Source of the DNA: Hyphomicrobiales bacterium
Lineage (GTDB): Bacteria; Pseudomonadota; Alphaproteobacteria; Rhizobiales; Rhizobiaceae
Length of the DNA: 64,000 nt
NCBI GenBank assembly: GCA_011087605.1
Contig: JAALLE010000007.1
Coordinates: 1 to 64,000 of the forward strand
Direction: 5' to 3'
The first letter of the stretch is position 1. Each line of letters opens with the position of its first letter. The translations under genes and the position numbers were made by a program. The notes under the pieces were generated by a model. It had not been told where the DNA came from. It saw only the letters and a program-made list of their open reading frames with translations, and made no database searches. Shown here piece by piece: positions 15,127 through 19,677 of this stretch.

Positions 15127-16308
15127 ATGATTACAGCCCGTTCAACTGCCTTTGTTGCGATCAGTCTTGCCTGGTTGGGAAGTGCCGCCAGTGCCCGCAC
15201 GCTGGAGCCTCAGACCATGCGCGACTGGACCGTACGCTGTACCGACGCGCGTTATTGCATCGCCGAGACCAAAGGAACATCTCGCCAGGGCGACACAATG
15301 TTGTTCAAACTCGAACGCAGCAACAAGCTGGACGCAAAGATCTTTGTAACATCCGCCCCAGAAGGCAAAATTCTCTCCCTCAAGTCGCATATTTCCGTGT
15401 CGGTCACCGGCCACGATTTTCGATTTTTCGGTCAGGTAAAGAAAGTATATGACGGCAACGAAGCGGCATTCATTGAAAAGCCCACCAATGAGAGCATTCA
15501 GAAGCTGAAGCTGGGGCGTTTTGCCGAAGTGACAATCGATTTTGACGGTGCCGACAAGGTGAAATATGACGTCTCGCTGCAGGGTGTTACATCCGTGCTG
15601 GCGATGATGGATGTGGTGCAGGGGCGGCTCGACAGGGAAGATGCCGCAGTCGTCATAGGTGGCGAAGCAAAAACCGTGCCGTCCTTTTACGACATGCAAG
15701 CCACCAGTGCTCCGCCCAAACCCGCGGCAGGGGAAAAGTCTGAAGTCGCAAAGGACCCGGAATCAGACATCGTTTATCCAGATGAAGACCAAAATCAGGA
15801 CACACCGAACGAGGAAAGCGGTCTGGGTGATCCCGACTTGATCTATGATGCGTCAAAATTGCCGGATGCGGTATTGATGCCCGGCTATCGGATGCTGGGC
15901 TGCGACCTGCCCTCAACAGTTCAGGCCTGGGGTGCGCAGACCATCAATCTGGAGCCGGGTGTGTTTCTGTATCTGGTTCCCTGCAACAATGCCGATGTAA
16001 ATGTCCCCTATTATGCAGCTCTGGAGGTCGCCGGAAGCATTGATACGCTGGAGTTTCAAGTCCCGGCCAGCGCTACGGGACAGCCAGAATCGCTGCTCAC
16101 CAACCCGCAATGGGACAAGCAGACTGAAAGCCTGATTTCGACCAAATACTTTTCCGTGAACCGCGATTGCGGTCAATATGAAAGACACGCGTTCAGAGGT
16201 GAGGAAAGTCGGTTTTATCTCAGCGAATACCGATTGAAGGAAAACTGCGACGGCAAGGTTTCATCGCCGGAAACCTATCCCATGGAGTGGAACGGCGAGG
16301 GCGATTAG
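15127..16308 (+). CDS. DUF1176-like secreted protein
   Basis: Signal peptide-like N terminus; MRDWTVRCTDARYCIAET...; C-terminal NRDCGQYERHAF...FYLSEYRLKENCDGK. Confidence 0.75.
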   Translation: MITARSTAFVAISLAWLGSAASARTLEPQTMRDWTVRCTDARYCIAETKGTSRQGDTMLFKLERSNKLDAKIFVTSAPEGKILSLKSHISVSVTGHDFRFFGQVKKVYDGNEAAFIEKPTNESIQKLKLGRFAEVTIDFDGADKVKYDVSLQGVTSVLAMMDVVQGRLDREDAAVVIGGEAKTVPSFYDMQATSAPPKPAAGEKSEVAKDPESDIVYPDEDQNQDTPNEESGLGDPDLIYDASKLPDAVLMPGYRMLGCDLPSTVQAWGAQTINLEPGVFLYLVPCNNADVNVPYYAALEVAGSIDTLEFQVPASATGQPESLLTNPQWDKQTESLISTKYFSVNRDCGQYERHAFRGEESRFYLSEYRLKENCDGKVSSPETYPMEWNGEGD

Positions 16309-17072
16309 GCCGCGGTCAACACGTTTTTGAGAATGATGTCGCGGACAAGATCGGGAGCCTCTTCAACGGGGGAATGTCCGACATTTTCCAACAGGTGCAA
16401 GTCGACACGGTCTCGCAACTGGCTGGCTTGTGTTACGGGGACAATGTTGTCGAGCTGCCCCCAAATCACCGACATCGGCAATTTCAGCTGAAGCAAATCA
16501 TCGATCGTCAAAACCCCTTGCCTGCCTCCTTCAAACACTTGTTCGCCGATCGCAATTAACGAGTCCACCGCGCCGGGTTGCGCTCGCAATTCCAATTGAT
16601 ATCCAACCATCTTTTCAGGAATTTGATAATCCGGCCCGAAAAAATGTGGCAAGACCTTTTCAACGTCCTGCCGGGTGCGGGCGGCGGCCCAGTCCATCAG
16701 CACCGGATAATTCAGTTCTGCTCCAAAACCACCGGGGGCCAGAAGCGTCACGCTGGCGATGCGATCCGGTGCCATCAGAGCAATCAAACTGGAAACGGCA
16801 CCTCCCATGGAATGACCGACCAAATGCACCTGATTGAATCCATGTGCATCCATGTCAGCAATAATCGCACGGGCTGCGATTTTTGGCTGCCCGGCATTGG
16901 GAAAACCAATGCTTTTGCCGTGCCCGGGCAGATCGTAGGCGATGGTAGGAGCCTTGAAGCTAATCGCTGTCTGCAGCCCCCACCATTGAGCGCCAACCCC
17001 ACCAAATCCATGCAGAAACAGAACCGGTTTGGAGTCCTTGCCGGTGTTGTTGATGGCGTTTGAGTAGAGCAA
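16305..17072 (-). CDS. alpha/beta fold hydrolase
   Basis: VLFLHGFGGVGAQWWGLQTAI, VHLVGHSMGGAVSSLIAL nucleophile elbow. Confidence 0.9.
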   Translation of the reverse strand: MLYSNAINNTGKDSKPVLFLHGFGGVGAQWWGLQTAISFKAPTIAYDLPGHGKSIGFPNAGQPKIAARAIIADMDAHGFNQVHLVGHSMGGAVSSLIALMAPDRIASVTLLAPGGFGAELNYPVLMDWAAARTRQDVEKVLPHFFGPDYQIPEKMVGYQLELRAQPGAVDSLIAIGEQVFEGGRQGVLTIDDLLQLKLPMSVIWGQLDNIVPVTQASQLRDRVDLHLLENVGHSPVEEAPDLVRDIILKNVLTAA

Positions 17073-17081
17073 GGTCGCTGC

Positions 17082-18770
17082 TCAGTTATCGTTGGCGAGG
17101 GACCGATTGACGGCGCTCACCAGTGCCTCAAGAGATGCCGCAACAATATTCGAGTTGATACCTGCACCAAACCAACGGTTGCCGGACTTTGTGTCCTCCA
17201 CTTCCATATAGCAGATAGCCGTGGCGTCGCTGCCATGTTGCAGGGAGTGTTCGGAATAGTCCGCCACCGATATGCTGGTTCCATAGGCATCGTTGAGAGC
17301 TGCTACAAATCCATCAATCGGGCCATTGCCCTTGCCCTTGATGACCCGGGTTTCGCCACCATCTGTCACTGTCACTTCGACGATGCGTCCGGTGGAATCC
17401 GGATCTGTGAATGTTGCGTGATCGACATAGCGAACCCGCCCATCGGGTTGGTCGACATACCGCTCCATGAAACGGGCATGAATGTCAGAAGACGGTAGCT
17501 CCCTGCCCTCTTCATCAGTAATGCGCTGCACATCATCGCGCATTTCGATCTGCAGGTTTCGGGGCAATTTTAGCCCGTAATCCGCCTCCATGACATAAGC
17601 AACACCGCCCTTTCCCGACTGGGAGTTGATGCGGATGATCGCCTCATAAGAACGGCCAACATCCTGCGGATCGATTGGCAGATAAGGAACTTCCCACATG
17701 TCTGTATTGGATTTCTCCAATGCTTTCATGCCCTTGTTGATGGCGTCCTGGTGACTGCCGGAAAAGGCTGTATAGACCAGTTCTCCCACATAGGGGTGGC
17801 GTTCGGGAATGTTCAGCTGATTGCAATATTCATAGACACCCTTGATGCGCTCAATATCGCGCACATCCATTTTGGGATCGACACCCTGGGTCATCATGTT
17901 CAATGCCAGAGTGACCACATCGACGTTGCCGGTGCGTTCGCCGTTGCCGAACAATGTACCTTCAACGCGGTCGGCACCCGCCATCAGGCCCAACTCCGTG
18001 GCTGCAATACCTGTGCCGCGGTCATTATGGGGATGCAGAGAAATCAGAACACTGTCGCGACGATCAATCTGACGACACATCCATTCAATCTGATCGGCGT
18101 AGATATTTGGCGTCGACATCTCGACGGTGGCAGGCAGGTTGATGATCAGTTTGTGGTCAGGCGACGGATCGATGACCTCGATTACCGCATTACAGATGTC
18201 GAGCGCGAATTCGAGTTCGGTACCGGTAAAACTTTCAGGCGAATACTGGTAGCGATAACTGTCCTTGCCGCCGCTTGTGGCGCTGGCCATATCGACAATC
18301 ATTTTGGCAGCATCTGTGGCGATATTCCTGATGCCGTCACGCCCCTGACCAAACACCACCCGACGCTGCAATTCGGAAGTCGAATTGTAAAAATGGACGA
18401 TCGGTGAACTGGCCCCTTCGAGGCTCTCAAACGTGCGGGTGATCAATTCGGGACGGCATTGAACCAGCACCTGAAGATCAACATCGTCCGGCACGCCGCC
18501 GTCTTCGACACACCAGCGGGCAAAGTCAAAATCGGTTTGGCTGGCCGAAGGAAATCCAATTTCAATTTCCTTAAATTGCATGTCGAGCAGCAGTGCAAAC
18601 ATGCGGGCTTTGCGCTCGTGGCCCATTGGATCAATCAGCGCCTGATTGCCGTCACGAAGATCCACGGAACACCAGATCGGTGCTTGGGTAATGGCGTTTG
18701 ATGGCCAGGTTCTGTCGGTCAAACCGACTTTGGGATAGGCGGAATACTTATTGGCTGCTTCCATCAACAT
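17082..18770 (-). CDS. leuA: 2-isopropylmalate synthase
   Basis: WCSVDLRDGNQALIDPMGHERKARMF, SLHPHNDRGTGIAATELGLMAGADRVEGTLFGNGERTGNVDVVTLALNMMTQG, C-terminal regulatory domain. Confidence 0.96.
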   Translation of the reverse strand: MLMEAANKYSAYPKVGLTDRTWPSNAITQAPIWCSVDLRDGNQALIDPMGHERKARMFALLLDMQFKEIEIGFPSASQTDFDFARWCVEDGGVPDDVDLQVLVQCRPELITRTFESLEGASSPIVHFYNSTSELQRRVVFGQGRDGIRNIATDAAKMIVDMASATSGGKDSYRYQYSPESFTGTELEFALDICNAVIEVIDPSPDHKLIINLPATVEMSTPNIYADQIEWMCRQIDRRDSVLISLHPHNDRGTGIAATELGLMAGADRVEGTLFGNGERTGNVDVVTLALNMMTQGVDPKMDVRDIERIKGVYEYCNQLNIPERHPYVGELVYTAFSGSHQDAINKGMKALEKSNTDMWEVPYLPIDPQDVGRSYEAIIRINSQSGKGGVAYVMEADYGLKLPRNLQIEMRDDVQRITDEEGRELPSSDIHARFMERYVDQPDGRVRYVDHATFTDPDSTGRIVEVTVTDGGETRVIKGKGNGPIDGFVAALNDAYGTSISVADYSEHSLQHGSDATAICYMEVEDTKSGNRWFGAGINSNIVAASLEALVSAVNRSLANDN

Positions 18771-18851
18771 GGAAAGTCATCCTTCTTGTTTTGGCTGGCA
18801 ACCGCATAGCGTTTTGCGGAGGTTAAGGCCAGAATATTTGAATTGAATTTT

Positions 18852-18897
18852 GGGGCGTCATGCTTTCCGACGGGAATTCTCGACCGCCGGACGCCCC
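18852..18897 (-). promoter_or_regulatory. candidate attenuator hairpin downstream of the leucine leader peptide
   Basis: Inverted repeat GGGGCGTC (18852-18859) / GACGCCCC (18890-18897) just after the leader stop and before leuA; no strong U-tract, so mechanism is uncertain. Confidence 0.5.
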
Positions 18898-18898
18898 T

Positions 18899-18970
18899 TT
18901 ACGTGCGCACAACCCGACGGCCGCCGATAAGCAGCAGGTCAAGATCTAGAAGGAGGGCGTGCGTGTTCAT
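18899..18970 (-). CDS. leucine-rich leader peptide of leuA: MNTHALLLDLDLLLIGGRRVVRT
   Basis: Manual minus-strand translation: ATG AAC ACG CAC GCC CTC CTT CTA GAT CTT GAC CTG CTG CTT ATC GGC GGC CGT CGG GTT GTG CGC ACG TAA; 7 Leu in 23 residues, about 130 nt upstream of leuA; followed by an 8-bp inverted repeat. Confidence 0.8.
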   Translation of the reverse strand: MNTHALLLDLDLLLIGGRRVVRT

Positions 18971-19021
18971 GGCACGAGTGTTAAGGTGAAATGGTTAAGG
19001 AAGCAAGAGCCAGGCTGACGT

Positions 19022-19677
19022 GTGCGCAAATTCATATTCTATCTGTTCATTCTGATCACGCTGCTGCCGACTGCACAATTTTCAGTTCAGAAAGGACACG
19101 CGCAAGAGCGCGATGAAAAACTGTATTTCATCGCAATTGCCTGGATAAAACCGGACCAACAGGCACGATATGATGAATTTGTGCAGGCGATTAAGCCGGT
19201 CTGGGCACGCCATAACATGGAAGTTGTGTTTCGCTCGCAGGTTATCGACACAATGATCAGTCCCGCTCATCTCACCCCCCCCCAAATGAAATCGCGGTGC
19301 TTGAGGTGGTCAGCCGGAAAGATTTTCACGCCTATATTGCGGATCCTGATTATCAGGCAATTAAACAATTGCGGCTGGATTCAGTCGACAAAATGCTGGT
19401 TTTGGAAGGTCAGGTCAGACAGCCGCCAAAATCAGAATTCATTCAATCTATTCCGCAGTTTGCGGTGATTGCCGGTGATTTTCCACCTTTCGAACCACAA
19501 CCATTGATGGATATTGGGGTTTCTGATCGGGGCGCAATAAAGGACCCTGTTCCAGCATCATTCAGCGCGGTGCAATCGGTTGCAGTGATGGCACTGTCAT
19601 ATGACGATAATCCACTGTCGTTTCTCGACAATCTAGGCCCGCAATCGTTGGCCTATGTGGTTTTGAAGGTCGAATGA
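19022..19677 (+). pseudogene. secreted DUF1330-like protein interrupted by frameshift in a C9 tract (19275-19283)
   Basis: Two overlapping ORFs (19022-19468 and 19297-19677) join as ...ISPAHLTPP(P)NEIAVLEVVSRKDFHAYIADPDYQAIKQLR... if one C is added; DUF1330-like 'EVVSRKDFHAYIADPDYQAIKQLR'. Confidence 0.75.

Follow-up and report, generated by a model that had tools for sequence, protein, structure and literature searches.

A leucine-rich leader ORF and a two-state RNA fold upstream of leuA in Rhizobiaceae: a probable attenuator-type switch lacking a canonical terminator

Upstream of leuA in the window, the whole 64,000-nucleotide stretch of DNA that was analysed, lies a short leucine-rich ORF followed by two RNA helices that compete for the same segment. 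With a probability of roughly 80%, we interpret this leader as a leucine-sensing, ribosome-mediated switch of the attenuator type that operates without a canonical terminator. Comparison among relatives supports both the leucine ORF and the mutually exclusive helices; that the ribosome stalls, in which direction the response runs and what the output is are inferred. The leader very probably senses leucine supply. It lacks one of the features that define a classical attenuator, yet its front part would work like one.

The leuA gene, encoding a 2-isopropylmalate synthase of 562 aa with Pfam LeuA domains, occupies positions 17082-18770 of the minus strand, with its ATG at 18770 and a Shine-Dalgarno (SD) sequence, AAGGA, at 18784-18780. 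On the same strand, the leader ORF (MNTHALLLDLDLLLIGGRRVVRT, 18899-18970) consists of 23 codons running from an ATG at 18970 to a TAA stop at 18901-18899, and its start lies 200 nt upstream of that of leuA. The seven leucine codons, in the order CTC CTT CTA, then CTT, then CTG CTG CTT, with a single other codon between the groups, make up the putative regulatory stretch (L6-L8, L10 and L12-L14; 18929-18955, minus strand), and this cluster is equivalently placed in relatives. A Leu-rich ORF with these coordinates and seven Leu codons had been proposed in a first-pass annotation, and both its sequence and its position are borne out here. That it arose by chance is ruled out by dinucleotide shuffles and by conservation in relatives: of 3000 dinucleotide-shuffled versions of the 300-nt upstream region, one contained an ORF with seven leucines in ten residues. 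Among the 46 window ORFs of at least 200 aa, leuA alone is preceded by such a Leu-rich ORF. Two further observations concern the neighbourhood of the gene. About 10 bp past leuA, an alpha/beta hydrolase gene follows on the same strand (16305-17072, minus), and its co-transcription with leuA is possible. On the plus strand, a divergent ORF contains a run of nine C at window positions 19275-19283. Past this run the reading seems to carry on in a different frame (19022-19468 and 19297-19677), the sign of a possible frameshift that could stem from an assembly error, from decay or from slippage.

For the comparative analysis, 80 leuA loci were taken from named genomes, and about 75 loci of Rhizobiaceae and their relatives were compared. 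While the first-pass annotation had named missing conservation as grounds against its reading, a short Leu-rich ORF precedes leuA in nearly all relatives, except for the distant loci that end the list. These ORFs usually comprise about 17-41 codons and share related end motifs (LLLLGLTRGCRVR, LLTLGLSGDRRAR and LLLIGGRRVVRT). Their N-terminal parts vary in length and sequence while the frame is kept, and TGA, TAA and TAG all serve as stop codons, a pattern that speaks for translation of the leader ORF.

Near the end of the leader ORF, segment A (CGGCCGTCGGG, 18913-18923, minus strand) is the predicted partner, in an 11-bp helix, of segment B (TCCGGCGGTCG, 18881-18891, minus strand), which lies past the stop codon. 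Alternatively, B forms part of the 5' side of hairpin B:C (18852-18897, minus strand), which begins one base past the leader stop and combines an outer stem, GGGGCG...CGCCCC, with an inner stem from B, at a predicted -24.3 kcal/mol. The 8-bp inverted repeat GGGGCGTC/GACGCCCC that had earlier been placed just past the stop is indeed present, at 18897-18890 and 18859-18852. Since B is common to both, A:B and B:C are mutually exclusive; the leader thereby has a hallmark of attenuators, namely two exclusive helices with a common segment, the first of which begins inside the leader ORF. Over 52 aligned sequences, the cells of the A:B helix hold standard pairs in 571 of 572 cases (99.8%), versus 20-50% of cells in controls that shift the partner by one to three bases, and compensatory changes occur at three pairs, one of them (G-C, A-U, C-G) in 20 of the 52 sequences. 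The outer stem of B:C is paired in 96.2% of cells over 52 sequences, with weaker covariation than A:B and less clean slid controls. Two points count against the proposed switch: predicted stabilities average -28 kcal/mol for A:B and -22 kcal/mol for B:C, and the comparison revealed no conserved helix that would protect A. Without a translating ribosome, "on" would therefore be the default state, in contrast to the trp leader of E. coli. As the Leu codons directly precede A, a ribosome held on them would leave A free, whereas a ribosome at the stop codon would cover it. Judged from the sequences, the choice between A:B and B:C, together with the Leu codons, would follow the logic of attenuation.

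It could also be argued that the RNA element is conserved for another reason, its fold binding a protein or ligand while the ORF is incidental and the Leu codons irrelevant. The similar-looking leuA leaders of Actinobacteria, where codon mutations were reported to behave unlike classical attenuation (PMC1262725), fit such a reading. However, in the relatives compared here frame, ATG and stop are kept despite the varying length and N-terminus, all three stop codons occur, and the Leu cluster stays placed before A, making this explanation very improbable.

An RNA model of the element was built from 52 of the fetched leuA leaders. In the window's own genome it produced one match at a convincing score, at leuA, and none at any other gene. 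Within the family Rhizobiaceae, the element was found in 58 of 61 genomes, once each at a convincing score, a figure that describes a survey and not an independent test, as many of the surveyed genomes come from groups in the training set. Two of the three genomes without a match lack any leuA, and the Leu leader of the third has diverged. All 30 fetched matches have leuA nearby, with 28 placing it downstream on the same strand by a simple rule; the flanks of the other two may be truncated. No family in Rfam, Pfam or NCBIfam matches the leader, in the case of Rfam at the gathering threshold and also at a permissive one. The leader is likely a regulatory part for leuA across the Rhizobiaceae, corresponds to one unannotated small ORF per genome, and can be found by two RNA models, counting the one for other families introduced below.

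A candidate promoter abuts the leader ORF. Its -35 element, TTGCTT, is located at 19001-19006 and its -10 element, TTAACA, at 18979-18984, 8 nt before the leader ATG (both minus strand). In most relatives, TTGC keeps the same spacing to the leader ATG and is followed, approximately 16-18 nt on, by (C)TATA or TTAAC ending approximately 7-8 nt before the ATG, and the -10 element of the window is in register with the CTATAA of relatives. By a simple pattern, a TTG/-10 pair ahead of an in-frame ATG occurs in 54 of 75 sequences, compared with 1.1% per position in the background. A -10 element that ends about 7-8 nt ahead of the start codon is the arrangement of a leaderless ORF, and the trpL leaders and most ilvI leaders of the same genomes have a similar promoter geometry. 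As the trpL RNA of S. meliloti has been reported to start at its ATG (PMC7298713), the leuA leader transcript is, by analogy, probably leaderless as well, starting at or near the leader ATG. A further transcription start inside the leader is possible.

In the proposed mechanism, transcription would start at or next to the leader ATG, as the promoter geometry suggests, and a ribosome would then translate the leader. When charged leucyl-tRNA is scarce, the ribosome would stall on the Leu codons, leaving A free to form A:B, which would block B:C and allow leuA to be expressed. When leucine is ample, the ribosome would reach the stop codon and cover A, so that B:C would form and leuA expression would be lowered. 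The most likely output seems to be hairpin-assisted premature termination, by pausing and perhaps with Rho, while mRNA decay and translational control are the alternatives.

What sets the leader apart from a classical attenuator is the missing terminator, a GC hairpin followed by a U tract. The 20 nt past the hairpin (AAAATTCAATTCAAATATTC, 18832-18851, minus strand) contain no U tract, and among relatives a mean of 2.2 U is found in the 8 nt past the leu hairpin. A terminator elsewhere between leader and leuA is likewise ruled out, as none of 75 genomes has a hairpin with a U run at any point between the leader stop and leuA. In contrast, the trpE(G) and ilvI leaders of nine genomes, the window's own included, carry a hairpin with T5-T7 in 18 of 18 cases, whereas T runs in the leu leaders of those nine genomes reach at most 2-4. 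This is a clean contrast within genomes: U tracts close the trp and ilv leaders but never the leu leader, so the leu signal is probably ended in another way (through Rho, pausing, decay or translation). The first-pass annotation had described the locus as a classical layout of ribosome-mediated attenuation, a description that stands for the conserved Leu ORF and the RNA switch and falls short at the U tract, absent from 75 of 75 relatives. It had itself remarked on a hairpin without a strong U tract, which applies here and throughout those relatives, and its hedge that control could be transcriptional or translational was apt. To this are added the competing A:B helix, the ORF-abutting candidate promoter and the breadth of the U-tract absence, all read from sequence. 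As side observations, the U-tract terminators of the nine genomes are found at both the ilvI leaders (e.g., MKNSIVLIVVGRRMGRMV) and the trpE(G) leaders (with WWW), most of which have leaderless-type promoters; the trpE(G) gene of the window's genome (106818-108956 of its contig) is reported to have one in-frame TGA within the match.

Could B:C alone nevertheless terminate transcription intrinsically, as in classical attenuation, despite the absent U tract? Its strong GC-rich hairpin right after the stop, of about -22 kcal/mol on average, the A/T-richer, G-poor sequence past it, and a switch logic like that of trpL are all compatible with this idea. Yet hairpins with a U run number 0 in 75 leuA leaders against 18 in 18 trp and ilvI leaders of nine genomes, and because the same genomes use U tracts for trp and ilv and never for leu, another output is favoured for leu and intrinsic termination appears unlikely. 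A form of the main proposal has B:C pause the polymerase or expose a G-poor tract to Rho or RNase. In relatives, G makes up about 0.11 and C about 0.30 of the 20 nt past the hairpin, giving a G-poor, C-containing stretch there, and the U tract is absent from two different hairpin architectures. However, the stretch in the window itself is A/T-rich, not C-rich, there was no sign of a conserved rut-like motif, and the argument is one of composition. We put this form forward tentatively, as one possibility for the output.

Translational control would offer another output, in which the leuA SD stays paired with the Leu run until a ribosome stalled on the Leu codons releases it, following the model of the actinobacterial LEU element. 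In the window, TCCTTCT of the Leu run is complementary over 7 bp to AGAAGGA at the leuA SD (18786-18780). Over 75 genomes, the predicted accessibility of the SD is 0.33 with the Leu run and 0.51 without it, cognate pairs of Leu run and SD pair better than permuted ones, and the leaders favour CTT and CTC codons. Within the core group, however, cognate pairs are not clearly above permuted pairs (fractions 0.06 and 0.63), the Leu run matches the trpE and ilvI SDs of those genomes to a similar degree, and in one close relative Leu run and SD pair poorly. We do not rely on sequestration of the leuA SD by the Leu run, the overall signal having vanished in within-group permutations and against the trpE and ilvI SDs, and the pairing signal looks compositional. 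An effect of the switch itself on the SD was rejected, as the choice between A:B and B:C leaves predicted SD accessibility unchanged. Translational control through the SD is regarded as improbable, somewhat more so than intrinsic termination.

A second architecture is found in families of the same order that have another LeuA type. Here, the Leu-rich ORF lies about 80-200 nt before leuA and finishes with a Leu cluster and then Pro, and its stop codon falls within the 5' hairpin arm (CCCCTGAG...CTCAGGGG). The hairpin is paired in 160 of 160 cells, with two-sided changes at positions that include the stop codon's middle base, and its arm would be covered directly by a ribosome sitting on the final Leu codons. 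A second RNA model matched in 15 of 96 genomes, each of another family, and all 15 matches lie directly upstream of leuA. A U tract is almost never present in this architecture either, with a mean of 2.0 U in 8 nt and a terminator-like site in 1 of 34. The odds are about even that alphaproteobacterial leuA generally uses a leader-peptide switch without intrinsic termination, in two architectures and beside U-tract attenuators of trp and ilv in the same cells; the two would be A:B/B:C in the Rhizobiaceae and the stop codon within a hairpin arm in many other families.

In the open-access literature, no description of an alphaproteobacterial leuA leader was found, and leuA goes unmentioned in the main text of a paper on ribosome profiling in rhizobia. 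One known counterpart is the leu operon attenuator of E. coli and Salmonella (leuL), which corresponds to the Rfam leucine leader, RF00512. Common to both are the Leu codon cluster in a short ORF before leuA and exclusive RNA helices. Unlike leuL, the leader described here has no Rfam match and no U tract, and its promoter abuts the ORF. The E. coli leu leader forms a 1:2/2:3/3:4 set of helices, instead of which two helices with a common B are found here. With the rhizobial trpE(G) attenuator (trpL, rnTrpL), the leuA leader shares a leaderless-type promoter and a short ORF followed by pairing segments, whereas the trpL terminator has T5-T7 and the leuA leader has none. For ilvIH of alphaproteobacteria, a leader was reportedly predicted by Vitreschak et al. 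in 2004. It likewise has a leader ORF, with Ile, Val and Leu codons, and a leaderless-type promoter, whereas a canonical terminator with T6-T7 is present at ilvI in all nine genomes and at leuA in none. A review refers to Vitreschak et al. 2004 for putative leaders in a range of Gram-negative species. A further counterpart is the LEU element of Actinobacteria (Seliverstov et al. 2005, PMC1262725), where a Leu leader ORF before leuA is combined with alternative structures and no terminator is invoked. In that model, the Leu run and the leuA Shine-Dalgarno sequence pair at the base of a pseudoknot (PMC1262725), whereas in the present leader this pairing does not exceed that of the controls, and A:B is the helix that is conserved. 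Upstream of the leuA of Nonomuraea, an actinobacterial gene for the same protein type, a Leu-rich short ORF, MLRGLLLSCRGGGL, was observed, in agreement with the published LEU element. The leuA leader of the Rhizobiaceae also resembles the so far unexplained leuA leaders of Actinobacteria that lack a terminator.
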